From positions 1 through 21,840 of the IMG/VR virus record IMGVR_UViG_3300002123_000037: a DNA stretch of 21,840 nt, one strand, 5' to 3'. Below, one piece after another: positions 8,963 to 21,743 of the stretch. The first letter of the stretch is position 1, and every line of letters begins with the position of its first letter. The position numbers were made by a program, and so were the translations under genes. The notes beneath the pieces were generated by a model, which was given only the letters and a program-made list of their open reading frames with translations, was not told where the DNA came from and did no database searches. The stretch comes from a virus.

Positions 8963-9181
8963 TTAATTTAGTATCATACTCCTTGCTTTTTGTCTTAATT
9001 GCTGTCTTTCTACTTCTCTTTGTTCTCTCATATTTCTACTTGCAATAGCTTTTAGATAACCATTAAAAGTTTTCCATCCCATGTGCATTAATTCTTCGTG
9101 TGTAAATCCTTCATTTATCATAGCTAAGAACAAAGGAAGAATAGTTATATCTCCTTGTTCTTCTCCATCTCCGTTAAAGTT
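8963..9181 (-). CDS. Frameshift extension of tail assembly chaperone (T part of GT)
   Basis: In the -1 frame relative to the G-like protein, the sequence is open from the A9 run to a TAA at 8965-8963 that abuts the tape-measure GTG. Slipping back one base gives 72 extra residues: NFNGDGEEQGDITILPLF, then LAMINEGFTHEELMHMGWKTF, ending REVERQQLRQKARSMILN. The acidic linker, the 'EGFTHEELMHM' helix and the basic coiled end resemble T parts of known G/GT chaperones. The fused product would be about 281 residues. There is an in-frame ATG (MINEGF) but no good RBS before it, so frameshifting is the better explanation. The extension probably recruits tail tube subunits to the tape measure. This is predicted from sequence, not observed. 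Confidence 0.75.
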   Translation of the reverse strand, partial: NFNGDGEEQGDITILPLFLAMINEGFTHEELMHMGWKTFNGYLKAIASRNMREQREVERQQLRQKARSMILN

Positions 9182-9807
9182 TTTTTTTCAATATCTTCAT
9201 CTTCAGTTGTTATTCCGCCAAGAATTTCTTTAGAAACAAAAACAATTAATTCCATTAATTGTTTAAAACTTAAATCAGCCAAAACGCCAGTCTTGATACC
9301 TTCATTTTTAATCTTGATTATTTCTTCTAATGAATTTATAATCTGTTTATATGCTTCTTGCTTATTACCGCTAGCTAACTGTTCCCCAGCTTCCATAATT
9401 GCAAAAGCATGAGTAACTATTAAATCTCCTGGTAATATTAGATTTTTGCCATGCAATTTTATCTCAACATCTTCATAAGTAGTTTCATCAAGATTAAGGG
9501 ATTTTTTACCTCCTTCTGTGAGAAGATCAACAAAGACAAAAGGAATAAGTTTGAAAAAACCTCCCTTATACATCATTTTCTTTTCTATCTCGTTATTCCC
9601 TAATGTATTCTTTATTTTTAATAATTCTGTATATAATTTTATTACTTCCCTATATGCCGAGATTTTCCCTCTTGTTAGTTCCTCTTGTAATGATATTACA
9701 ACAAGAGCTTGTTTTGAAGGAAGGTCGGCAGGCAAGAACCAAGTCTTGCCCTGCCATATAATCTCAGCATCTTTTGGAAGTAACAAATCTAAATCTAATA
9801 CTTTCAT
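9145..9807 (-). CDS. Tail assembly chaperone (G-like), internally duplicated
   Basis: This encodes 220 residues with AGGAGG before its ATG, between the tail tube and tape-measure genes, the usual place for the tail chaperone. The sequence contains two copies of one domain. Residues 13-67 (DAEIIWQGKTWFLPADL ... ELLKIKN) align with 113-168 (DVEIKLHGKNLILPGDL ... EIIKIKN), with a period of 100, then 101 after a one-residue gap. D, E, I, G, K, L, P, D, L, A, G, A-Y and I-K-N are shared. The following FFKLIPFVFVDLL and LMELIVFVSKEIL segments also correspond. Single-domain chaperones are usually about half this length. It ends EDEDIEKK at the A9 run and then TLTEMEKNKEI in frame 0. Confidence 0.8.
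   Translation of the reverse strand: MKVLDLDLLLPKDAEIIWQGKTWFLPADLPSKQALVVISLQEELTRGKISAYREVIKLYTELLKIKNTLGNNEIEKKMMYKGGFFKLIPFVFVDLLTEGGKKSLNLDETTYEDVEIKLHGKNLILPGDLIVTHAFAIMEAGEQLASGNKQEAYKQIINSLEEIIKIKNEGIKTGVLADLSFKQLMELIVFVSKEILGGITTEDEDIEKKTLTEMEKNKEI
9178..9189 (-). promoter_or_regulatory. Slippery A9 run for -1 frameshift
   Basis: The minus strand reads G, nine A, C, T (9189-9178), decoded in frame 0 as GAA AAA AAA ACT. It allows tandem -1 re-pairing on lysine codons. It lies 11 codons before the frame-0 stop, and the -1 frame then runs open for 72 codons to the tape-measure start. I did not identify a clear downstream pseudoknot. Confidence 0.7.
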
Positions 9808-10777: not shown

Positions 10778-11047
10778 TTACTTACCTCCTTTCTTCATAT
10801 CCTTTATAGATTCACTAATAATAGATTCACTAATAGTAGATTCACTAATAATAGATTCGCTAATAATAGGATTTTTTTCTTTTATTATTACTTTTGGCTC
10901 TTCTTCTATAACTTTTTCTAAATCAGCCCTTTCTTCTATTTCCCAATCTGCAATTTTACCATTTTCTATAATATCTCCATGATTAAGTGTTTTCCCAATC
11001 TTTGGCATATATACAGAAAAAGAACCTATATATCTTGCTTTCGCCAT
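10778..11047 (-). CDS. Small protein with SH3-like start and ISES pentapeptide repeats
   Basis: This encodes 89 residues. Residues 1-50 (ARYIGSFSVYMPKIG, NHGDIIENGKIADWEI) look like the small beta domain often encoded in phage head-tail regions, and weakly recall the start of the unknown gene at 12863. Residues ~64-84 are a run of I-S-E-S-(I/T) pentapeptides, encoded by a 15-base tandem repeat. The C-terminus is basic (KDMKKGGK), and its codons supply the AGGAGGT that serves as RBS of the tail tube gene. It lies between tail terminator and tube genes, so a minor tail or neck role is possible. The product name is not known. Confidence 0.6.
   Translation of the reverse strand: MAKARYIGSFSVYMPKIGKTLNHGDIIENGKIADWEIEERADLEKVIEEEPKVIIKEKNPIISESIISESTISESIISESIKDMKKGGK
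10807..10866 (-). repeat. 15-bp tandem repeat, four units, coding
   Basis: Four direct units of the plus-strand sequence TAGATTCACTAATAA occupy 10807-10821, 10822-10836, 10837-10851 and 10852-10866. Unit 2 differs at its last base and unit 4 at one base. The unit length is a multiple of three, so copy-number change keeps the reading frame. The encoded motif is I-S-E-S-(I/T). Confidence 0.9.
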
Positions 11048-11048
11048 T

Positions 11049-11519
11049 TCACACCTCCTCCGTTTTGACTATTATCTCAACTTGCCCTTCTTTAGCAAAG
11101 ATACCATCTAATGCTTTATTTCGCATAAGTGGATAATAGTCCCATCTTCTTAAATCTATATTCCATGCTGTGCTATTCAACGAAACATCTGTCCATAATA
11201 TTTCAAGAATAGCCCTAATATATCTATATATTCTTTTTGTTATTACTTCTTCATCACTATCAACATCTACTATTGAAATTACTACATTCTGATTTGCCTC
11301 CAACCAATCGGATGTTTGAATGATTGTTTCTCCACTATCACCAAGAATAATTATGGAGGGGAAATCAGGATATTCTTGTTTTTCACTAAGATAATAATGA
11401 GCTATGTCTCTTAAAATTATCCCATCTCCGTATGTAGTATTGAGACTAGTCAATTTTGCAGACATATTATTTTGCAATAAAGTCTTAATCTGATTTACAA
11501 TCGTCTCCATTAAATTCAT
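11049..11519 (-). CDS. Tail terminator / tail completion protein
   Basis: This encodes 156 residues. The pattern resembles tail terminator or minor tail proteins (lambda gpU and DUF1834/Gp37-like): an N-terminal amphipathic helix (METIVNQIKTLLQNNM), PSIIILGDSGETI, then NVVISIVDVDSDEEVITKRIYRYIRAILEIL and a C-terminal QVEIIVKTEEV strand. The start overlaps the stop of the neck gene by four bases. Gene order (adaptor, neck, terminator, then tube) agrees with this role, which is to end tail tube growth and join the tail to the head. Confidence 0.7.
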   Translation of the reverse strand: MNLMETIVNQIKTLLQNNMSAKLTSLNTTYGDGIILRDIAHYYLSEKQEYPDFPSIIILGDSGETIIQTSDWLEANQNVVISIVDVDSDEEVITKRIYRYIRAILEILWTDVSLNSTAWNIDLRRWDYYPLMRNKALDGIFAKEGQVEIIVKTEEV

Positions 11520-12025
11520 GTTCCCATTGCTCCAAATATTCTTCTTCTTTCTTCTACAATCCTTTTCCTAAACAATTCAATCCATTCTCCTTTAATTCCC
11601 ATAACTGTTTCGGGAATATCTACAGGAGGTCTACGAGGTAGTTTTCTTCTTTTACCTGTTGATTGATGATAGATTGCATATGGGACATTAGTTCCTATTT
11701 CAAGTCTTGTTGGTGTTAATTTATATAGAGATCCCTTGCTACCTTTTTTTATTAAGCTTCCTCTTAAATCTCCTTTTCTAACTAAAATAGGTTGTCCAGG
11801 ATAGTGCTTCGCTTTCCATATTGCATATCTCGGACTAAGTGCAACCCATCCACCCGAATATCCACCCTGACTATCAAATTGCTCTTTCTCTACTCTATAG
11901 AAAATATCGCCAGCTTTTTTTAATGGTTCAGTCCAATCTGATATTGATTCAGAAAATTGAACAAGATTTCTTTCAAATTGCACATCCCCTAAAACTGAGA
12001 TTTTAAAATCTATATAACCACCCAT
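11516..12025 (-). CDS. Neck / virion morphogenesis protein (Mu gpG- or HK97 gp10-like)
   Basis: This encodes 169 residues. The central segment has the family pattern: GGWVALSPRYAIWKAKHYPG, then ILVRKGDLRGSLI, then LEIGTNVPYAIYHQSTG, and a basic, proline-rich RKLPRRPPVDIP. This is the 'W.pLs..Y...K....iL..tG.L..S......iG....YA..HQ.G' pattern of phage virion morphogenesis (PF05069) and HK97 gp10-like proteins. It sits between adaptor and terminator genes, which fits head-tail joining. The start overlaps the stop of the adaptor gene (TAATG-type junction). Confidence 0.82.
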   Translation of the reverse strand: MGGYIDFKISVLGDVQFERNLVQFSESISDWTEPLKKAGDIFYRVEKEQFDSQGGYSGGWVALSPRYAIWKAKHYPGQPILVRKGDLRGSLIKKGSKGSLYKLTPTRLEIGTNVPYAIYHQSTGKRRKLPRRPPVDIPETVMGIKGEWIELFRKRIVEERRRIFGAMGT

Positions 12026-12498
12026 TAGAATACCTGCCCTTTCCTGAATTTAGGTTTTAGATGTTCTTCTACTTGCAAACCTGCGTCATCATCATCATCT
12101 GGATTATCTACAGCATAAGAAGTAGCTCCTTGAGACCATGAAGCACGAGGTGCATCATTAAGTATTTGTGGATTTTTCTCTATTGCACTCAATTGTTGGT
12201 TAAATATTGTCCAATACCTATTTGGTGGTTCGCCTTCTGCCGTAGAGACAGCAAGTCTTCTTGAATTCTCAACTAATGCTGCTGCACCTATTGCATTTAG
12301 AGTTAATAGCATACCAGAAGCAACCGAATAACCAGTTCCAACAGGAACTGTAAATCCTACAGCCGATAATCTTGCATCAATAATCCCCGCAATCTGTGAA
12401 ATTATAGAATTTATTTCGTTCTGGTTAGGATGAGAAATAGAAGTAAAAACTATTTGACTATTTACAGCTTGAACATCACCTGACGTGCAATAAGACAT
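12025..12498 (-). CDS. Head-tail connector/adaptor protein
   Basis: This encodes 157 residues. The N-terminus MSYCTSGDVQAVNSQIVF, followed by QNEINSIISQIAGIIDARLSAVG, is the helical pattern of head-tail adaptor proteins (gp6/DUF1320-like: short start, 'T..DV', then helices on a membrane-free alpha bundle). A DDDDDAG acidic loop and basic HLKPKFRKGQVF end follow. Order and size fit an adaptor that docks on the portal, although the portal gene itself is not in the window. The gene overlaps both neighbours by one base. Confidence 0.7.
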   Translation of the reverse strand: MSYCTSGDVQAVNSQIVFTSISHPNQNEINSIISQIAGIIDARLSAVGFTVPVGTGYSVASGMLLTLNAIGAAALVENSRRLAVSTAEGEPPNRYWTIFNQQLSAIEKNPQILNDAPRASWSQGATSYAVDNPDDDDDAGLQVEEHLKPKFRKGQVF

Positions 12499-12863
12499 TA
12501 TATTTCTCCATCTTCCAAATTAATGCCTACTAACTTCAATAAATATTCTCTATATTCATCATTAGTAGCTTGTCTAAGAAATTTTTTTAAAGAGCGTGCT
12601 TGAGTTTTATAAGTAAAGAATATAAAATCCGATTTCTTATATTCTTTATCTCTAATAGACATATTTTTTTTAAATATAAATGGAATTGCTTGACTATCAA
12701 GTGCGATAACTGTTTTATTATCAGTTATCTTTCTAAATTTGTCTTTATCTTCATTAAGTAAATTTAAAAGAATAGGATGGTTGATATATATTACATCCCC
12801 AGCCTTTCTCTTTTCGCCACACCATTTGGTGGTTTCTGTTACAACAAAATATCCTGCACTCAT
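12498..12863 (-). CDS. Small phage protein of unknown function at head-tail junction
   Basis: This encodes 121 residues and I do not recognise it. The first ~45 residues (GYFVVTETTKWCGEKRKAGD, then VIYINHPILLNLLNEDKDKF) resemble a small SH3-like beta fold followed by a helix, as in other short head-region proteins. The rest is basic (KKFLRQATNDEYREYLLKLVG). Its ATG overlaps the TGA of the last cassette methyltransferase by four bases, and it overlaps the adaptor gene by one base. So a structural-block gene is translationally coupled to the modification cassette. It could be structural or a cassette partner. Confidence 0.6.
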   Translation of the reverse strand: MSAGYFVVTETTKWCGEKRKAGDVIYINHPILLNLLNEDKDKFRKITDNKTVIALDSQAIPFIFKKNMSIRDKEYKKSDFIFFTYKTQARSLKKFLRQATNDEYREYLLKLVGINLEDGEI

Positions 12864-13654
12864 AAAATCACCTCCTTAATTTTCAAAATACATCTTAAAT
12901 GTTGTTTCCACCTTAAATCATGATGCCTTTGGTAAAGTTTCTTACTTGTAAGTGTAAAGAAACTATTGCCATATTTCCAATTATTCCATGAATCTTTTAT
13001 ACCTTCAATACAATAAGAGAAATCATCAATAAACCAACCTGTTTTTTCAAATAATTCAGCCCACCATATAGCAGGTTTAGCTATTTTGTGTGTTTTATCA
13101 ATATTATATGCGGGGACATTATAGGTATTCCCAACTCCCAATGGAATTATTGCAAATAAGACATATCCTTTATCACTCATTAGATTTAATAATTCATTTA
13201 TTCTATCTTCTGGTATATGTTCTAATGTATCTTTAGATACAATATATTCAAAATGTTCAATATCATCAAATGGTATAGGGTCTTTTTTTGTAGAAAGTCT
13301 ACAGTATTGTTTTATTTCTTTATCTACTTGAGATATTGCATATTCAGATATATCGCATCCCCAAGCCTGCCTATATAGCATCAATCTAAAAGCTCTCACT
13401 AAGTAACCTTTTGACGAACCAAAATCTAAAATTTTATCCTGTCTTCTTATACCAAGATGGTCTACCATAGCCATTGCCATAGGCGTGGTTAATTCAGGTA
13501 ACCATCTATACATAGAAAAACAGGAAATGCCTTTTTCAAACCCTCTCTCAAAATAATCCTCTCCATATTCCTCCTCTGTAATAGAAGGATGATTGAATTC
13601 ATAGTAATTTAAATTCTCTCTTTTCACAATCTCAGCCAAGCTGTTCTGTTGCAT
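12860..13654 (-). CDS. SAM-dependent methyltransferase (class I, UbiE/Methyltransf_11-like)
   Basis: This encodes 264 residues. Motif I is ILDFGSSKGYLVRAF at residues 75-89, the post-I acidic residue is in CDISEYAIS, and motif IV/V is EYIVSKDTLEHIPEDRI followed by LLNLMSDKGYVLFAIIP. This is a Rossmann-fold class I methyltransferase. The N-terminus includes an acidic segment (ITEEEYGEDYFERGFEKG). The ATG overlaps the radical SAM gene by 31 bases and has only GGAG about 11 bases upstream, so translation may be coupled. Its substrate is unknown; a sugar of the proposed glycan or a small molecule is most likely given the neighbours. No DNA-methyltransferase NPPY-type motif is seen. Confidence 0.82.
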   Translation of the reverse strand: MQQNSLAEIVKRENLNYYEFNHPSITEEEYGEDYFERGFEKGISCFSMYRWLPELTTPMAMAMVDHLGIRRQDKILDFGSSKGYLVRAFRLMLYRQAWGCDISEYAISQVDKEIKQYCRLSTKKDPIPFDDIEHFEYIVSKDTLEHIPEDRINELLNLMSDKGYVLFAIIPLGVGNTYNVPAYNIDKTHKIAKPAIWWAELFEKTGWFIDDFSYCIEGIKDSWNNWKYGNSFFTLTSKKLYQRHHDLRWKQHLRCILKIKEVIL

Positions 13655-14577
13655 TTATTACATGGCTCCATTATTTGTTTAGTTTTTTCTTGTGACTTAA
13701 TTTCATCTCCTAAATAATGCTTTGGTAATTCAATTCCTTCTGGAAATTCAAATGAATTTTTAAATAAATGTCTGATTCTCGTTAATGCTTCGCAATTCCA
13801 TATTCTTGTCAAATCCTCTTCTTTTTCTATTTTCCCAAAAGTGCATTCCCCCTGAACATCATCAGTGCAACATATACATATAGTTCCATCCCATAAAACA
13901 TGAGGAAGTATGAATGGATAATCACATACCGATGGAGTTAGACATCCAGTATCATAGCCATCTTCACCAGCCATCTCTTTAACTAAATCCAACCAGGGAT
14001 TCATATTCTTAATTACATGAATATTATCATCGGGTAACATTTGTCTGAATCTTTCAACAAATTCTTTCTCAATTCCATTATGAACATATTTTGTTTTTAT
14101 CAATGCTATATGCTTATGCACTCTTTCTATGCTGCCAAGTTCATGGTATAATTCAAGAAAGTTTTTTATCATTAATTCCATTTTCACTTCCTGGAATTCA
14201 CCTTTAGAATTAAAGGGATGATAAGTCATTGCAAGCGTTACATCACATTTAGAATCTTTAATAACCCTTACAACTCTTTTAATTTGTTCAGGATCTGCAA
14301 CTAAACCTGTAAATAAATCAAAGTGGACATCCTTTTTAAGAGAACATAAATATTCAATAAATTCTGGTAAATATGAATATAATAAAGGCTCACCTAAACC
14401 ATTAAGATTAAATCCTGCATAGTAATTATATTTAAGTGTCTCTAAAGCTATAAGTTTTGCAAGTTCAAAATCCATCATTCCAACTTTTCTTGTCATATAC
14501 CGTCTTGGACATTCGGCACAATCTAAACCACAAGCATTAGTTAATTCTAACTGTATTGCTTCAATCTTGTGTTGCAT
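13624..14577 (-). CDS. Radical SAM enzyme with SPASM-like C-terminal cysteine cluster
   Basis: This encodes 317 residues with AGGAGACCTT just before the ATG. The radical SAM CxxxCxxC motif is C16, C20, C23 (ACGLDCAECPRR), preceded by IQLELTN as usual. An NGLGEPLL motif (residues 59-66) matches the SAM-binding GGEP motif. The C-terminal half has cysteines at 212, 218, 234, 236, 237, 245, 262, 306 and 309, with C-T-F-G-K and CNKC elements typical of SPASM domains that hold extra iron-sulfur clusters. SPASM enzymes modify peptides, or alcohols on sugars and related substrates. In this cassette a sugar dehydrogenation, epimerisation or peptide modification is possible; the sequence does not decide which. 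Confidence 0.85.
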   Translation of the reverse strand: MQHKIEAIQLELTNACGLDCAECPRRYMTRKVGMMDFELAKLIALETLKYNYYAGFNLNGLGEPLLYSYLPEFIEYLCSLKKDVHFDLFTGLVADPEQIKRVVRVIKDSKCDVTLAMTYHPFNSKGEFQEVKMELMIKNFLELYHELGSIERVHKHIALIKTKYVHNGIEKEFVERFRQMLPDDNIHVIKNMNPWLDLVKEMAGEDGYDTGCLTPSVCDYPFILPHVLWDGTICICCTDDVQGECTFGKIEKEEDLTRIWNCEALTRIRHLFKNSFEFPEGIELPKHYLGDEIKSQEKTKQIMEPCNKCNRTAWLRL

Positions 14578-15361
14578 AAGGTCTCCTTTCTATTAATACG
14601 ATTAAATCGTTTTCCCATAATTTTGTCTTAATCCATTCAGGATTATTTTCTAAAAATTCATTTAAAGCTTGTTTAATATCAGGAATAGTTGCATCATCAA
14701 ATATAATTGCATCAGTCATCTTGCTACAAATTGCTATTTCCTTTTTTGTATGTTCGTAAGTATGAATAGTATCTAGAAAAATTAATTCATAATATAGGGA
14801 TAAATTCCCTGAATTAAGCATTGCAATATCATCTCCTTGCCAAAAAGTCCACCAACTAACATCTTTATACCTGACCCATGTTTTACCTAATGGGTGCCTA
14901 TCAACACTATCCAGCTTGCCACCTTGTGTTTTACACCAATAATGAAATAACGAAGTAGATATACCACTATCTCCACCAACACCAAGTTCTAAGATTGAAT
15001 ATGGTTGCACTTTTGCTAAGCCAGCCATATATGCAATAGCAGATGGGTATTTCATTAACGAAAGATGCCAGAATAACTCTATTTCTGATTGAAAATATCT
15101 GTTATCCAATGCCTTACCTTTCTCTAAAATATTCGGTGTATTTTGTTCATAATGAATAAGGTCAGGATAATAAGCATTAATAAGAGAATCATCTACCGTT
15201 GATAAGAATGGTAAATCTTGCCAACTTTCTTTTTCTTGTAGTTTAATTTCATCAGGTATAATAGGGGATTGTTCTTTTAATAATTCATAATGCATTCTTA
15301 AACCTGCCTCAAATCCTTCTTGAATACTACCATCAGGATATAAGCATTTATAATTAGCCAT
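14561..15361 (-). CDS. SAM-dependent methyltransferase (Methyltransf_24-like)
   Basis: This encodes 266 residues. Motif I is ILELGVGG at residues 123-130, followed by DSGISTSLFHYW. An acidic DSVDRH (151-156), LIFLDTIHTYEHT (193-205) and AIIFDDATIPDIKQAL (218-233) complete the class I fold; the 'LD..H.YE....D' segment is the hallmark of Methyltransf_24 and of cephalosporin hydroxylase-like proteins found in glycan clusters. Such enzymes often O-methylate sugars, and the order between glycosyltransferases and radical SAM fits. GAGG lies six bases before the ATG. It overlaps the radical SAM gene by 17 bases. Confidence 0.82.
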   Translation of the reverse strand: MANYKCLYPDGSIQEGFEAGLRMHYELLKEQSPIIPDEIKLQEKESWQDLPFLSTVDDSLINAYYPDLIHYEQNTPNILEKGKALDNRYFQSEIELFWHLSLMKYPSAIAYMAGLAKVQPYSILELGVGGDSGISTSLFHYWCKTQGGKLDSVDRHPLGKTWVRYKDVSWWTFWQGDDIAMLNSGNLSLYYELIFLDTIHTYEHTKKEIAICSKMTDAIIFDDATIPDIKQALNEFLENNPEWIKTKLWENDLIVLIERRPYATQD

Positions 15362-15416
15362 TAATGCCTCGCATATGACGATATTTTTCCATTCTATCTT
15401 GCCCTACTGGAATTAA

Positions 15417-16379
15417 TCACTCTATCCTCTTGTTTAATTGATTTGGATACTTTAATATCAAATTTTCGGTCTTACCCCTTATGTCATCATCTACAACCTG
15501 CTTCCATATCCTATCTTCTCTTTCCCACCAGAAATTCTCGTATTTCAAGACAAATCCATCATTTACATCGTGTTTAACTCTGTCCCATGCTCTTGTTCCA
15601 CCCCAAAAATGGATATAATAAGGATCTGCATAACCTCCATAATAAGTTCCTTCTGGCACATGATCGGGAAATGGGAAGTATCTATGATCTACAGGTGCTT
15701 TAATTAAATTATATCCTTGTTCTTCAAGCCAATAATATAGTTGTTGCCCTGGTTCATACCAACCTGCATTTAATCTACCATTATCAGAACCAGTCTTTTG
15801 CTTAAATCCTCGTTTCTCGGCAAATGCTCCAGTCCACGATAAGTAACTTTGATCCATTTCTCTTATATCCATTGTCTGATTAAATCCTTCTCCAAAATAC
15901 ATTGTATAATCGTGATTATCCATGCAAAGTTTATTGAATTCTTGTACAGGTTTAGTTCTATATAATGTTGCAGATGGATTAATATAATTATGCACATATC
16001 CGCCTTCATCCCAATAATAGCCAACTGCCACATTCTTTTGCTCTCCTTCTAAGAACGAAAGATACCAATCAAGCCATCCATCTTTACATGCCATACTATC
16101 TGTCTCTGCTGTAAATATATATTCAGTATCAATAAGTTCTATTGCACAATCTAAAGCTGAAGCATGGAATCTATTTGGTTTCCAATTATCTACTACCTTT
16201 ACTCCTTCACCTAATTTCGTCTCAGTTATTCCTCTAATACTGTTATGCCATGACGAATTATTAACAATCATAATATCATAATCAACATTATTCTTAGTTT
16301 TCTTAAAACTTGACACAACCACTTGTGTCCATTTCCATGTATGTCCATGTGGTATTACTATTGTTACTTTTTTATTCAT
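15417..16379 (-). CDS. GT2-like (GT-A fold) glycosyltransferase
   Basis: This encodes 320 residues. The N-terminus has VTIVIPHGHTWKWTQVVVSSF, then DIMIVNNSSWHNSIRG and NRFHASALDCAIELIDTEYI, the usual strand-helix order of family 2 glycosyltransferases. The metal-binding D-x-D position reads E-T-D-S (residues 92-95), an acceptable variant. Residues ~130-260 are aromatic-rich (YYWDEGGYVHNYINP, WYEPGQQLYYWLEEQG), typical of the acceptor side. The start overlaps the stop of the previous glycosyltransferase by one base with GGAGG upstream. It is predicted to add one sugar from a nucleotide donor. The donor and acceptor are unknown. Confidence 0.82.
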   Translation of the reverse strand: MNKKVTIVIPHGHTWKWTQVVVSSFKKTKNNVDYDIMIVNNSSWHNSIRGITETKLGEGVKVVDNWKPNRFHASALDCAIELIDTEYIFTAETDSMACKDGWLDWYLSFLEGEQKNVAVGYYWDEGGYVHNYINPSATLYRTKPVQEFNKLCMDNHDYTMYFGEGFNQTMDIREMDQSYLSWTGAFAEKRGFKQKTGSDNGRLNAGWYEPGQQLYYWLEEQGYNLIKAPVDHRYFPFPDHVPEGTYYGGYADPYYIHFWGGTRAWDRVKHDVNDGFVLKYENFWWEREDRIWKQVVDDDIRGKTENLILKYPNQLNKRIE

Positions 16380-18439
16380 TAATTACCTCCTTTTTCTAAT
16401 GCGTAATTTATTGCTTTTATAACATCCGCTGGTGGAATAGTGTTAATGCAATAAGGCGGACGGCAATCCATTCTATTACCAAAACAAGGACCCAAAATAG
16501 GGCATACCCTTACATAGTCTGGTTCAACCCCTATTGTCATACGATAAGGTTGCGTTACTCGTGCTGCACCCGTCCCATAAAGGACTACTGATTGAGTGCC
16601 GACACTTGCGGCACAATGCGATATAAATGAATCAATGCAGATTACAAGTTTTGCTTGTGCCAGGATAAAAGCAGTTTCTCTAAAAGAGAGTTTCCCTCTT
16701 AAATCAAGAGATACTCCTTCTGCATATATGTCTCCATTACCTCCAACTTGAACAAAAGGAATATTCTTAAAATGTGTTATAACTTCTGCAAATCTACTAT
16801 AGACACGGAAAGGATGTCCTCCCGATGTATGGATTGCAAAGAATTCTTTGTTACCATATTTAAAATCATTAACGATTTTGGGATATATTTTTGGTTCAGT
16901 CCAAGATACATTCAGCATATCGGCATATATCCTATATAATGGAACATCAGCAGTTCCCCAATTTCCCCTCAAAACAGGTTCATGTATCATATACATTTTC
17001 TTATATTTATTTAAAAGATTAACATTCCAATCTACAACTTCATCTATATCAGGGTTACCTTCCAAAATGTCTTTGTATATAGATTTAGTCATGTATACCA
17101 ATTTTGATTCAGGGAATTTAGCTTTAACTCCTGGTATTGCAGAAGTCCCAAGCAAGACATCTCCTGCGGTTTCATCTAAGGCATATAATATATCGTTTTC
17201 ATTAGTGATTTTAGGCACTACAAAAATAGGTTTTATCTTTTCAATATTAAATACTTCCCTAAATCCTTTCATAACATTAATAATATGAAAATCTGTTAAT
17301 ATTAATTTAAAGCCTTCTTCTACTCTTGGGTTTAGCTTACCATCAGCAATATTTATAGCTTTTTCAACCATGTCATCTATATCAACAATAGGTCTTGCAC
17401 TGCCATCATTACCAGGGAAATGATGATAAGTCTGAATTTTAATCGGCACTCCAGCTTTTTCTAGAGTCTCGCTTAAAGCAGAATGGTCAGGCATTAATAC
17501 GGGAGTTTTTGTTGCAAAAGCATATAATTTAGGTAACCAGAACCCTTCAGCAGTTGATGTAGTTATCAATAAGTCAAGGCAATTATATATCTTATTCATT
17601 TGTTCCGTAGTAACAAGATATGGATTAAAACCCTCAATATTCGGTGATTTAATAACGCCATGCTTCAATACATACCAGTTTAACATTTGCCCTAAGTTAT
17701 ATCCCATTGCCCATCTATCCACCATTGGATTATCAGCATTTAATCTCGTATGTAAATATAAGACAGATGGTCTTTCATATTTCTTTTCAAATAAGTTATA
17801 AAATTGTAGAGTTCTTGGGAAGTTTTTCCTATAACTATGATGATTAATATTGCCTATTATATAAGAATCAGGATTTACACCCAAAACATTAACTTTAAAA
17901 TCTGTTAATTGGTCTTTAATAATAGGATAATATTCATCAGGATTAACGCCTATTGGTATAATTTTCATTTTTTTCTTCAATTCGGGTGCTACTCTCAATA
18001 TCTGTTTAAATCCATATTCAGAATAAACTAAAATTATATCTACATCTCTTATATAGTCAGCATAATCTCTTAATATTGGTGCATCTATTGCTGTATAAGT
18101 AATAATAACAGGATATTTTAAATGTTCATGTAAACTTCTGATTAATTGAGGCATAAATCCTAATTCAAATATATCTATCTGTAAAAAAATTACATCAAAG
18201 TTTGCTCTAATAGCATATTCAAAAAATTTAGCTCTCCCTAATGGATCATTGTGGGGGTTAGGTAATGCTGGTATAATAAAATATTCCAAACTTCTATTAT
18301 CAATATAAAATTCATTAATTCCAAAAAATGTAAAATCAAATTCTTTCCCTAACGAATCGGCTATGTTTTTCATAACAATACCCCTACCAGTCGGAGCTGT
18401 CGGAGTATCGGAATAGCATAAAATCTGTTTTTTTGCCAT
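16379..18439 (-). CDS. Two-domain glycosyltransferase: GT4-like fused to GT9 (heptosyltransferase-like)
   Basis: This encodes 686 residues. The N-terminal half (1-400) is a GT-B, family 4-like unit: TPTAPTGRGIVMKNIADSLG, PELKKKMKIIPIGVNPDEYY, and TAEGFWLPKLYAFATKTPVL. The second Glu of the E-x7-E motif (after E298) is Tyr306. The C-terminal half (403-680) is family 9-like, as in ADP-heptose LPS heptosyltransferases: LRGKLSFRETAFILAQAKLV, ICIDSFISHCAASVGTQSVV, then cysteines 646, 652, 659 and 664. The RBS AAGGAAGG lies before the ATG, 30 bases after a hairpin. The fusion could add two sugars in series. It opens the cassette directly after the capsid block. Substrates are not predictable by eye. 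Confidence 0.85.
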   Translation of the reverse strand: MAKKQILCYSDTPTAPTGRGIVMKNIADSLGKEFDFTFFGINEFYIDNRSLEYFIIPALPNPHNDPLGRAKFFEYAIRANFDVIFLQIDIFELGFMPQLIRSLHEHLKYPVIITYTAIDAPILRDYADYIRDVDIILVYSEYGFKQILRVAPELKKKMKIIPIGVNPDEYYPIIKDQLTDFKVNVLGVNPDSYIIGNINHHSYRKNFPRTLQFYNLFEKKYERPSVLYLHTRLNADNPMVDRWAMGYNLGQMLNWYVLKHGVIKSPNIEGFNPYLVTTEQMNKIYNCLDLLITTSTAEGFWLPKLYAFATKTPVLMPDHSALSETLEKAGVPIKIQTYHHFPGNDGSARPIVDIDDMVEKAINIADGKLNPRVEEGFKLILTDFHIINVMKGFREVFNIEKIKPIFVVPKITNENDILYALDETAGDVLLGTSAIPGVKAKFPESKLVYMTKSIYKDILEGNPDIDEVVDWNVNLLNKYKKMYMIHEPVLRGNWGTADVPLYRIYADMLNVSWTEPKIYPKIVNDFKYGNKEFFAIHTSGGHPFRVYSRFAEVITHFKNIPFVQVGGNGDIYAEGVSLDLRGKLSFRETAFILAQAKLVICIDSFISHCAASVGTQSVVLYGTGAARVTQPYRMTIGVEPDYVRVCPILGPCFGNRMDCRPPYCINTIPPADVIKAINYALEKGGN

Positions 18440-18512: not shown

Positions 18513-18893
18513 CTAGTTTCCAAATGCAACATAAGATACATTTGTAGTTCCAGCTTTATATAACTCTCCAGAAGCAAGCACTTGATATATCCAGAATCTA
18601 CCTGCATTAGAATAATCAGGTGCCCATGTATATTTTTCTGGTGTCACACCTGCACTTGGTGCTCCTGATCCTGCTGGTATTACTTGGAAAACATTTGTTA
18701 GTGGGGTGCTAAAATATCCACTTCCGGTTGTTCCTACTTGTCCTCCACCAGAAACTATTATCATATTAGCTCCAGTTGATCTGACAATATTAGGACTTGC
18801 AGAGGTAACTTTGGTTGTGCCAGCTATTTGAAGAGTTGAACGCACATCTAGTATATCTAGAACTAATTTTCTTCTCTTTCTTTCTGTTCCCAT
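18513..18893 (-). CDS. Small Ser/Thr/Gly-rich protein next to major capsid (possible decoration protein)
   Basis: This encodes 126 residues with AGAAGGAG before the ATG. The N-terminus is basic (MGTERKRRKLVLDILDV), then the chain is rich in Ser, Thr and Gly (IAGTTKVTSASPNIVRSTG, MIIVSGGGQVGTTGSGYFS) and ends with beta strands (RFWIYQVLASGELYKAG). I do not recognise a family. The position straight after the major capsid gene and before the terminator suggests a head decoration or fibre protein made in quantity. Its Ser/Thr content makes it one candidate acceptor for the glycosyltransferases encoded next; this is speculative. Confidence 0.6.
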   Translation of the reverse strand: MGTERKRRKLVLDILDVRSTLQIAGTTKVTSASPNIVRSTGANMIIVSGGGQVGTTGSGYFSTPLTNVFQVIPAGSGAPSAGVTPEKYTWAPDYSNAGRFWIYQVLASGELYKAGTTNVSYVAFGN

Positions 18894-18942: not shown

Positions 18943-19872
18943 TTAAGCTACAATATTCGCAAACATGTAACCACAATCTGCACTTACAACATATTCATCT
19001 ACACTATGCCATGCCTCATATACATCCTGAGATTTATTCTCTTCTCTCCAGCTTTTTACATAATCAGAGGGGCCATGACTAAATATATAAGCAGCAGTTG
19101 GAGTTCTAAGTCCTGGTTTTGGAGCTACATAACCAATCCAACAATGTTTTCCCCATATATAAGCCATAGTTGTTGTAGATGCGCCTTCTACTGAAGTTGC
19201 CTTTATTGCTTTTCCAACAAGCAATTTATCAAATCCAAGTAATGCTGCTGTTGCATCTACTGTTAGTATTCTTTTATCATTGTTTGAAAGTTTACTTAGA
19301 AAGTCAGGATGAGTCCTTAGAATATCCCATACCTGCGCTCCTATAACCATTGTATTGGGGTCTCTCCCTATAAGTCCTCTAACTGTTGATACAGCAGTAT
19401 AAAGAATATCATAGAATGGGTCAGATGCTGCATAATCATTCCACAGATTTGATGGTGTAGAAGTGCTTGTCCAATTTGCAGCAGTAAATATCATTGAAGC
19501 AACTCTCCCTTCCATCCCTAATAACAATACATTTTTCGCATATTCCGTAGCTTCTACTTCCAAATTAAAAGGTGGATCTGCATTATTTTTGACTTGATCT
19601 GCAACTTCTTTTGCCCATGAATAATCTATGCAAGTATAAGAATTACTCACATCTATACGGTATCCGCCTCTAGGGCCTTCGGAACTCACACCTCTTGGCA
19701 CTATTTCATCTCTGAACCAGTCAGCTTTTGAATATAATGGCACTATATCTGACTTTTTCTTTACATCTATTATCGGTGCTACTTTATCAGCAATAAATTC
19801 AGTATTTTTGTATAATACTGAAATGTTAGACATTATTTGATTTACATGAACATCATGTTCTGTTGGTAACAT
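18943..19872 (-). CDS. Major capsid protein
   Basis: This encodes 309 residues, with AGGAGGTGAAGAGAA directly before the ATG, the strongest RBS in the block. The sequence shows HK97-type traits: N-terminal helix (HVNQIMSNISVLYKNTEFIADKVAPI), a flexible E-loop-like segment (RGVSSEGPRGGYRIDVSNS), a long spine-like region (LLGMEGRVASMIFTAANW), then NTMVIGAQVWDILRTHPDF, a marker of phage coat proteins, and VGKAIKAT followed by MAYIWGKHCWIGYVAPKPG near the end. The neighbours (protease, decoration protein) agree. No protease cleavage site could be set, so possible processing is unknown. Confidence 0.88.
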   Translation of the reverse strand: MLPTEHDVHVNQIMSNISVLYKNTEFIADKVAPIIDVKKKSDIVPLYSKADWFRDEIVPRGVSSEGPRGGYRIDVSNSYTCIDYSWAKEVADQVKNNADPPFNLEVEATEYAKNVLLLGMEGRVASMIFTAANWTSTSTPSNLWNDYAASDPFYDILYTAVSTVRGLIGRDPNTMVIGAQVWDILRTHPDFLSKLSNNDKRILTVDATAALLGFDKLLVGKAIKATSVEGASTTTMAYIWGKHCWIGYVAPKPGLRTPTAAYIFSHGPSDYVKSWREENKSQDVYEAWHSVDEYVVSADCGYMFANIVA

Positions 19873-19888: not shown

Positions 19889-20275
19889 TTATGATTCTTT
19901 ATGCCCTAAGCCAACAAGAACAACTTCTATAATCTCATTAGCGGCAGTTGCTACTTCTTTATTTACTCCTACTCTATATTGGTTACCATTGGTCTGAGTT
20001 ATAACTCTACCACTGGAATCAAAAGTTAGCATCGTTCCCGCACTTGCTATTGCGTCTCCTGCTACTACTTTGCTTGTTCCTGCCTGCCTTACTGTAGCCT
20101 CTTCATTGGCTGCAGCAGGGTCATTCTGCAATATTCCTACAGGAACTTGTGATGTATTTGTTGCTGCTGTGTTGACAGTATCTGCTGCTGATATTCTCAT
20201 TACATAATATTGCTTCGCACTTAAATCCCCAGCAGCTTTATAACTTATATCATTTCCGTCTGTAGATTTAGACAT
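19889..20275 (-). CDS. Capsid decoration protein (DUF2190-like)
   Basis: This encodes 128 residues. The pattern QYYVMRISAADTVNTAA, VPVGILQNDPAAANEEATVR and GTSKVVAGDAIASAGTMLTF is that of DUF2190/head decoration proteins ('.GI..n....G....V...G...v.aG..i..G..l......G'). The C-terminal IIEVVLVGLG strand fits the trimeric, beta-tulip-like fold. It lies between scaffold and major capsid, as in Mu-like and related head operons. It should stabilise the expanded capsid. Confidence 0.82.
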   Translation of the reverse strand: MSKSTDGNDISYKAAGDLSAKQYYVMRISAADTVNTAATNTSQVPVGILQNDPAAANEEATVRQAGTSKVVAGDAIASAGTMLTFDSSGRVITQTNGNQYRVGVNKEVATAANEIIEVVLVGLGHKES

Positions 20276-20294: not shown

Positions 20295-20843
20295 TCATGT
20301 TTTGAAGCCTTGAGCTTCTCTATATATCTTATAGAGTTCAGGTTTTTCTTTAAATACCATAGTCAAAGCTCCTGCATAATCTATTTTAGCTTCGGTCATT
20401 TTCTTAGCTATCTCTTCTTCTACCAGCTCCATACCTTCTTTTACTTTAACAGAGTCTCCATCTGCACCTCTTATGCCGAGGTCAACAATAGGTGGTAATT
20501 CTGATAGTAATTTTGTAGTTCTTTCAGGATCAATTTTATACCATTCTACATAATGGTCTTTAAGGACTGGAATTATTCTCCCCTCTTTGAGGGCTTTATT
20601 TATAACTTCATCCATTTCTTTATCTCTTAGCTTATCTTCAAGAGTTTTACTCTTTTCTGCGAGTCTTTTTATTTCTTCTTGATCCTTTATAACTAAATCA
20701 GATAGCTTTTTGACTTCTTCTTTTAGTTTATCTGAATTTTCCATGTTTTTTACTCCTTCTTTTAGTTTGCGAATTGCGGTTATAGCAATTTCTATTGCTG
20801 AATCTTCTGGCAATTCTAACTCTTGTAATATTAAATTATCCAT
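20295..20843 (-). CDS. Nested scaffold protein (internal start in protease gene)
   Basis: An internal ATG at 20843 (Met301 of the protease) is preceded at eight bases by AAGGAGGA, a near-perfect RBS, and would make a 182-residue protein sharing the protease C-terminus. It begins MDNLILQELELPED and is dominated by charged helices (KKLSDLVIKDQEEIKRLAEK, KTLEDKLRDKEMDEVINKAL), as expected of scaffolding proteins. A second possible start is Met334 (ATG at 20744) with AAGGAG at eight bases. Mu gpI/gpZ and lambda C/Nu3 are the known precedents for this nested arrangement. The RBS-like bases also encode Lys-Glu, so chance cannot be excluded. Confidence 0.6.
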   Translation of the reverse strand: MDNLILQELELPEDSAIEIAITAIRKLKEGVKNMENSDKLKEEVKKLSDLVIKDQEEIKRLAEKSKTLEDKLRDKEMDEVINKALKEGRIIPVLKDHYVEWYKIDPERTTKLLSELPPIVDLGIRGADGDSVKVKEGMELVEEEIAKKMTEAKIDYAGALTMVFKEKPELYKIYREAQGFKT

Positions 20844-21743
20844 TGATACTTCCTCCTTCTTCTGTTTTTGTTTAGCTGCAGTCCATTCTGCTAATTTCCA
20901 CCCTTCAGATAACATAACAGGGGACATTCCTTCTAGAAATGGTCTATTTGTAAGAGCAGAGGCGAAAACAGTTTGTCCTTGTTGTTTACCCTGTTTATTT
21001 GTATAGGCAAAATCAAATTCTGGACTTAAGAATCTATATTCACCATTAACAATGTAGTCTACAGCTCTCTTTGTCCAGTATGGGATAGCCCAAAGCCCTT
21101 GTTTACCTTTATTTAATAATTTTCTTATCCATCCAGCAGCTGGAACAGGTCCCTGTATATTGCCATCGGCTGACAAATGTTCATAATCTATTACTAATTC
21201 ACGCTTGCCCTTCTCAAAATTTTCTACAAATTTTGCTACATCACCTTCTGTAATTGAAAAATCCCCATATTCAGGGTGACTCCATTCTCCTACACACATT
21301 ATCTGTATAGGGGCACCCTCTGTTAAGCCTTTTATATCTATTTCCGTAGTATCTATAAGTCTTATGCCATGTAAATCAATAATAGACTTCATTTTGCTTT
21401 TAGACCCATCTTTAGGAACCAACATCATTCCAGACATTATATTCTGCATCATATCGCCCATCATTTTTTGCATCATCTTCTTCATTTTTTCATCTTCATC
21501 ACCGTCTGATATACCAGGCACATGCACAGAATTAGGAGTTGGTTCCATTGCCTTCTTTACCCACTCCTCACCTTCCTTAGTATATTGCTTCTTAACTGCT
21601 GCCCATGCGACAGCAAAACTTTTTTCTTCATCTCCATCATATTGTTCGTAAGCACTATTAAAGGCACTTTGCCAGATATTCTGAGCATGAGATGGCATTG
21701 TCTTCACTCCATCAGGCAAACTATCTAATGTTGGATATGGCAT
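20295..21743 (-). CDS. Prohead protease/scaffold, Mu gpI-like, with N-terminal ChaB domain
   Basis: This encodes 482 residues. Residues 1-62 match the ChaB fold (LPDGVKTMPSHAQNIWQSAF, then EKSFAVAWAAVKKQY). Residues 87-107 hold ten Met in 21 (pattern MMxxMMxxMM). Residues ~115-280 are the Mu-I protease: VIDYEH at 184-189 is the conserved catalytic segment, followed by AAGWIRKL, YRFLSPEFDF and ALTNRPFLEGM (263-273), all typical of the family (PF10123). The last ~180 residues are charged helices, the scaffold part. The start has GGAGG at eight bases. It is the first gene after a strong terminator. The protease should cleave scaffold, and perhaps capsid, during head maturation. Confidence 0.87.
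   Translation of the reverse strand: MPYPTLDSLPDGVKTMPSHAQNIWQSAFNSAYEQYDGDEEKSFAVAWAAVKKQYTKEGEEWVKKAMEPTPNSVHVPGISDGDEDEKMKKMMQKMMGDMMQNIMSGMMLVPKDGSKSKMKSIIDLHGIRLIDTTEIDIKGLTEGAPIQIMCVGEWSHPEYGDFSITEGDVAKFVENFEKGKRELVIDYEHLSADGNIQGPVPAAGWIRKLLNKGKQGLWAIPYWTKRAVDYIVNGEYRFLSPEFDFAYTNKQGKQQGQTVFASALTNRPFLEGMSPVMLSEGWKLAEWTAAKQKQKKEEVSMDNLILQELELPEDSAIEIAITAIRKLKEGVKNMENSDKLKEEVKKLSDLVIKDQEEIKRLAEKSKTLEDKLRDKEMDEVINKALKEGRIIPVLKDHYVEWYKIDPERTTKLLSELPPIVDLGIRGADGDSVKVKEGMELVEEEIAKKMTEAKIDYAGALTMVFKEKPELYKIYREAQGFKT

Follow-up and report, generated by a model that had tools for sequence, protein, structure and literature searches.

In a 21.8-kb viral fragment from IMG/VR (IMGVR_UViG_3300002123_000037; 21,840 nucleotides, hereafter the window), five co-directional minus-strand genes (12860-18439) stand between the major capsid gene and the connector genes, and encode a GT4-GT9 fusion glycosyltransferase (GT), a GT2-type GT, two S-adenosylmethionine (SAM)-dependent methyltransferases (MT1 and MT2) and a radical SAM enzyme (rSAM1). 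These enzymes belong to a recurrent set, which is a real system: at least ten further viral contigs were found by profile scans to carry all or some of it within the head/tail structural operon. Its best explanation, and on the sequence evidence probably the right one, is that a virion protein is glycosylated late in infection, stepwise and in the cytoplasm, with methylated sugars tailored by radical SAM chemistry. A preliminary description of the window had proposed the cassette; its five genes, their strand and their junctions (in order from the GT4-GT9 gene, an overlap of 1 base, a gap of 55 and overlaps of 17, 31 and 4) were confirmed by the open reading frames (ORFs) and by recomputation (Table 1). 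The five genes are real, but they are not the complete set: the same phage has, at other places, another radical SAM gene (rSAM2) and two additional GT2 genes. Its sequence is extended beyond the window by two near-identical contigs, G001 and G002 (34.9 and 37 kb).

Domains and families were assigned with Pfam and PHROGs, remote relatives were taken from profiles against the PDB, and models were made with AF2 and compared by Foldseek. The enzyme classes given in the preliminary description (GT4-GT9, GT2, two methyltransferases, radical SAM/SPASM) hold, with GT2 and MT1 just below the Pfam cut-offs. The fusion protein joins a GT4-like N-terminal half to a heptosyltransferase-like GT9 C-terminal half, an architecture shared by seven viral homologues. 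A profile of the eight viral fusions had the chlorovirus GT B736L as its top PDB match (E 7e-19), and its C-terminal half led to heptosyltransferases; the GT9 half retains GDVL and DSFISH motifs and a four-cysteine finger (C646-x5-C652-x6-C659-x4-C664). GT2 carries ETD (residues 92-94) at the DxD position, and its assignment is upheld by a confident predicted GT-A model (predicted local distance difference test (pLDDT) 82, predicted template modelling score 0.86), for which the top Foldseek matches are GT-A enzymes; homologues 35-43% identical occur in six viral contigs. MT1 is the weakest assignment of the cassette: its motifs (the SAM-binding ELGVGG, DTIH and FDD) and its homologues, 37-42% identical in four viral contigs, point to a methyltransferase, and its profile matched CmcI at E 0.07 only.

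rSAM1 has a CX3CX2C motif at residues 16-23 (C16-C20-C23) and auxiliary cysteines C218-x17-C236 and C306-x2-C309. The auxiliary-cluster spacing of BtrN is C-x17-C ... C-x2-C. BtrN is the nearest relative of rSAM1 both by profile against the PDB and by Foldseek (E 2.6e-8, with a moderate model, pLDDT 61), and rSAM2 shares the CX3CX2C motif (C50-C54-C57) and the four-cysteine auxiliary pattern (C240/C258/C299/C302). BtrN is a twitch radical SAM dehydrogenase of butirosin biosynthesis, with four-cysteine auxiliary ligation, that oxidises a cyclitol alcohol (PMC9012708); its substrate is a free aminocyclitol. The same enzymes could instead act, with the methyltransferases, directly on virion proteins in the manner of peptide maturation, alongside or in place of glycan tailoring. 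The second-ranked relatives of rSAM1 by profile and fold (YydG/EpeE, SkfB and SuiB) are peptide enzymes, and the N-terminal domain of rSAM2 matches many peptide maturases. However, the lead of BtrN among the relatives of rSAM1 is clear (E 2e-19 vs 2e-6), the genes occur in company with those for glycosyltransferases and sugar-nucleotide enzymes, and no precursor-like peptide gene was recognised, so that we regard direct protein modification as improbable.

In this phage, rSAM2 lies directly upstream of a 720-aa gene, putatively the portal gene by position and size, and the two additional GT2 genes lie beside the terminase gene terL, on the opposite strand. The latter are separated from the terminase gene by an IS605 OrfB/TnpB-like gene (L059:4268-5452), seen in the part of G001 that extends past the window.

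Used as single-sequence queries, four of the cassette proteins retrieved only the same phage from the viral contigs, and family profiles were required to reach the relatives, which, isolates apart, are metagenomic contigs throughout. The preliminary description had suggested looking for the same genes in related phages, and knew of no system with this exact set; the latter fits the literature that we found, although other phages have the set too. Seven contigs (G303, G304, G305, G306, G307, G308 and G313) carry it on one strand inside the head/tail gene block. G306 has the order terL-portal-MCP-neck-GT4GT9-GT2b-rSAM2-GT2-MT1 (MCP, major capsid protein), G303 the order portal-GT2c-rSAM2-MT1-X-GT2-rSAM1-MT2-protease-MCP-neck-GT4GT9-tail, and G304 the order MCP-neck-GT4GT9-GT2b-...-rSAM2-MT1-GT2-rSAM1-MT2-tail tube-TMP (TMP, tape measure protein); the arrangements in G307, G308, G313 and G305 are similar. 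Structural labels were confirmed by PHROGs in G304 (terminase, protease, MCP) and G306 (terminase, portal, MCP), those of the remaining contigs being weaker, from BLAST to G304/G306 or from gene order. G303, G304 and G305 each hold all four of MT1, GT2, rSAM1 and MT2, and in them rSAM1 adjoins MT2 as it does in the window. As a rule the fusion gene stands immediately behind the head-completion genes: it comes after a neck gene and a ~200-aa gene in G303, G304, G307, G308, G313 and G318, and after a 285-aa neck-like gene in G306. Partial sets are found in G316/G318, in G319 (terL-portal-rSAM2-rSAM-MT2) and in G315 (MT2-rSAM2 between capsid-side and neck-side genes); in G309, G310, G311, G312, G314 and G317 placement in a structural operon is not shown or the contig is too short. 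Some members also carry sugar-nucleotide genes (GDP-mannose dehydratase and epimerase in G309, a DegT aminotransferase in G304). Recurrence as a set in unrelated viral contigs means that the arrangement is not due to chance.

The pairing of MT2 with a radical SAM gene extends further. Profile scans with rSAM2 and MT2 found 131 viral loci for each gene, most of which hold both. Of the 79 rSAM2-derived hits, 65 have MT2 no more than 150 nt away, but many contigs are redundant and the figure to use is that after clustering at 70% identity, 16 of 25 clusters. MT2 usually adjoins a radical SAM gene, pelagiphage- and cyanophage-like viruses included: pelagiphage HTVC008M and cyanophage SynMITS9220M01 both have a full-length rSAM2 match with an MT2 homologue as the next gene. 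Two minor features of these clusters may be recorded. A dual-specificity-phosphatase-like gene (PF00782) is common to G306 and G312 beside the glycan genes (L209:11557-12000, L214:4020-4481), and in some contigs one cluster holds a pair of radical SAM genes that are rSAM2-type or close to it, at L071:1901-3861, L194:1019-5224 and L201:6282-7987.

The structural operons that hold the set are of at least three unlike head modules, with MCP families phrog_1005 in the window, phrog_29 in G304 and phrog_1357 in G306. In the rSAM2 tree, different head types share one clade: G315, whose portal is podovirus-like, groups with G303 and G308 (99/97), and G313 falls within the clade of the myovirus-like loci. 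The tree has eight weakly supported forks and does not give the full history, but its mixed heads fit genes that move from one head module to another and stay within the structural operon. Taken together, a mobile set residing in the structural operons of unrelated head modules, a methylated glycan modified by radical SAM enzymes on the particle, and a conserved MT2-rSAM two-enzyme module common to abundant marine phages make up a picture that could equally well hold or fail as a whole.

The sequence shows the genes, their domains and their core motifs, which are intact. In the pathway that we infer (late co-expression, virion target, sugar donors, step order and radical reaction alike), the enzymes would be made together with the head and tail proteins, since their genes lie within the late structural operon. 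In the cytoplasm, the GT4-GT9 fusion, GT2 and the two terL-side GT2 enzymes would add sugars to a virion protein one after another, as a short chain; rSAM1 and rSAM2, both of the twitch type, may oxidise or rework a sugar carbon, a step suggested by the likeness of rSAM1 to BtrN and by the oxidation of a cyclitol alcohol by the latter (PMC9012708); and MT1 and MT2, the second partnered with a radical SAM enzyme, would methylate the product. No membrane segment is predicted for any cassette enzyme (maximum of 1.58 in a 19-residue hydropathy window), and no flippase, ligase, lipid-carrier transferase or export gene was recognised beside the sets, which fits a soluble acceptor. Given these features and the position in the operon, virion proteins are the most economical target. 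Several points weigh against this explanation. No acceptor protein common to the contigs was identified; the GT4 half is without the second Glu of E-x7-E (E298...Y306), which its relatives mostly retain; the operon position shows likely co-expression, not the target; enzymes that modify peptides are likewise among the relatives of the radical SAM enzymes; and the rSAM2-MT2 pair of pelagimyophages and cyanophages stands outside structural operons, in clusters read as modifying host lipopolysaccharide (LPS) (PMC7029224).

The main rival is modification of the host surface, where LPS, capsule or teichoic acid would be altered during infection, so that superinfection is blocked or newly released phages are kept from adsorbing to debris. 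This is how the glycan and radical SAM genes of pelagimyophages have been read in print, with the host O-chain as proposed target (PMC7029224), and in HTVC008M and a cyanophage the relatives of MT2 have genes of the heptose pathway and for a carbamoyltransferase beside them. The GT9 half is similar to LPS heptosyltransferases, and one of the relatives that Foldseek gave for GT2 is TarP, which glycosylates wall teichoic acid. The HTVC008M and SynMITS9220M01 clusters resemble ours in containing the rSAM2-MT2 pair and other glycan genes, but they are not in a structural operon, and no GT4-GT9 fusion was found in them. The location of the genes inside the structural operon in at least ten contigs, the lack of predicted membrane segments and of recognised carrier or export genes leave a host-surface role unlikely, though it deserves more weight than direct protein modification. 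By the features compared, the set is not one for O-antigen conversion of the gtrABC kind: its GTs are not predicted to be membrane-bound, no flippase was recognised beside it, and the genes lie between capsid and connector/tail rather than in a lysogeny/attachment region.

Glycosylation of hypermodified DNA of the phage was considered as well. Phage GTs are able to act on DNA (PMC12619734, PMC7029224), but we noticed no hydroxymethylase or base-hypermodification gene among the ORFs of this phage, the genome of which is incomplete, and the position among virion genes and the radical SAM and methyltransferase partners make a DNA target very improbable.

No chromosomal counterpart of the set, which the preliminary description had named as evidence against its own reading, was found in the cellular sequence searched. 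A single-sequence scan of the genome collection with GT4-GT9 gave no fusion and three weak partial matches, to the GT4 half only; the fusion profile found separate GT4 or GT9 halves only in 395 Bacteroidota genomes, in which MT2-like matches had no full rSAM2 partner nearby. Among plasmids, rSAM1 had weak matches at 23-26% identity and rSAM2 none. The Bacteroidota negatives are of limited weight because the strong Shine-Dalgarno sites of this phage (a Shine-Dalgarno-like site precedes each cassette gene) argue against a Bacteroidota host, and a cellular origin outside the searched collections is still conceivable. The preliminary description had favoured a methylated, radical-SAM-tailored glycan on the virion rather than on the host. 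That reasoning is now stronger, because the set recurs in structural operons with unlike head modules and no cellular counterpart was found.

Virion glycosylation thus proposed would work like two described systems. In the cluster O mycobacteriophage Corndog, gp35-gp38, an O-methyltransferase and GTs encoded between portal and protease, were proposed to add glycan and methyl groups to the capsid (PMC4351075), and virion glycans are reported for related mycobacteriophages in work cited in PMC11256854 and PMC12619734. As in Corndog, methyltransferase and GT genes are embedded among head genes, and phage-encoded GTs lie among virion structural genes in the window and in at least ten other contigs; the portal-protease set of Corndog is, however, listed without a radical SAM gene or GT4-GT9 fusion (PMC4351075). 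tblastn of the cassette proteins gave no match in mycobacteriophages, the Corndog record itself not being compared. In chloroviruses, virus-encoded, soluble, cytoplasmic GTs and a methyltransferase domain act on the capsid protein Vp54, and B736L of NY-2A, whose biochemical role is not known, is a homologue of PBCV-1 A546L (PMC5408694). B736L is the top PDB relative of the fusion profile, but chloroviruses are eukaryotic algal viruses, with no GT9 fusion and with a described set lacking radical SAM enzymes. Our set differs from both in the GT4-GT9 fusion, the two radical SAM enzymes and the recurrence across unlike head modules. A heptosyltransferase of the TibC type (BAHT), a GT9 enzyme with a protein acceptor, finger cysteines 339, 342, 358 and 370 and an N-terminal beta-barrel (PMC4358343), does not agree with the features compared: both have a fold of the GT9-type class and, close to the C-terminal lobe, a finger of four cysteines, but the cysteine spacing here is C-x5-C-x6-C-x4-C, and where TibC has its beta-barrel the fusion has a GT4 domain.

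Phage virion glycosylation is known from few cases. With a multi-enzyme set that includes two radical SAM enzymes recurring in unrelated uncultivated phages, such glycans could be commoner, and their chemistry more varied, than has been supposed. If the proposed pathway is true, radical SAM chemistry is employed in virion maturation. The rSAM-MT2 combination is also a directly testable enzyme pair for the glycan genes of abundant marine phages, where the target is only guessed.

Transcription of the window passes through the head protease, cement protein, major capsid protein and 126-aa protein genes before reaching the cassette, and then through those of the 121-aa, 157-aa and Phage_tail_S proteins to the tail genes (Table 1). 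The last cassette gene had been described as overlapping a structural gene; the overlap, of 4 bases, is there, but the 121-aa protein has no family match and is structural by position only. The 126-aa protein had been singled out as a Ser/Thr-rich acceptor. This did not stand, as its Ser plus Thr content (20.6%) is no higher than that of other virion genes in the window (20.9% and 19.8%), and it is a possible but unproven candidate; its similarity to the protein after the capsid gene of a 37% identical MCP relative was not significant.

Table 1. Cassette genes and their neighbours in the window, in order of transcription.
Feature	Position	Strand	Match or basis
Head protease	20295-21743		PHROGs match
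Head decoration/cement protein	19889-20275	-	PF09956 E 3e-7
Major capsid protein	18943-19872	-	phrog_1005 E 1e-72
126-aa small virion-type protein	18513-18893	-	no family match
GT4-GT9 fusion glycosyltransferase, 686 aa	16379-18439	-	PF01075 (GT9 half) E 3e-9; phrog_2170 (GT4 half) E 5e-30
GT2-type GT-A glycosyltransferase, 320 aa	15417-16379	-	Pfam E 9e-5, just under cut-off
MT1, Methyltransf_24-like SAM-dependent methyltransferase, 266 aa	14561-15361	-	Pfam E 4e-4, below cut-off
rSAM1, radical SAM enzyme with twitch/SPASM domain, 317 aa	13624-14577	-	PF13186 E 5e-8; PF04055 E 3e-5
MT2, class-I SAM-dependent methyltransferase, 264 aa	12860-13654	-	PF13489 E 3e-7; phrog_27380 E 7e-32
121-aa protein	12498-12863	-	no family match; connector region by position only
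157-aa protein, head-tail connector region	12025-12498	-	no match; by synteny
Phage_tail_S protein, head-tail connector region	11516-12025	-	PF05069 E 3e-5

The codon-position GC of the cassette resembles that of the rest of the phage and does not mark it as recent foreign DNA. No tRNA was found in the sequence of this phage. Over 12.9 kb, a strain represented by G003 differs from the window at 50 positions, all at 9059-9650 and mostly in a 220-aa gene (9145-9807), a block that is due to local recombination or replacement; there are zero differences in the cassette, and hence no strain variation there that could bear on selection. An 89-aa protein (window 10778-11047) ends at its C terminus in a short repeated ISES-type motif (IISESIISESTISESIISES). 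Outside the window, in G002, the same phage encodes a Ro60-like protein (L042:13537-15108; TROVE E 4e-52, Ro60 vWA E 1e-61).

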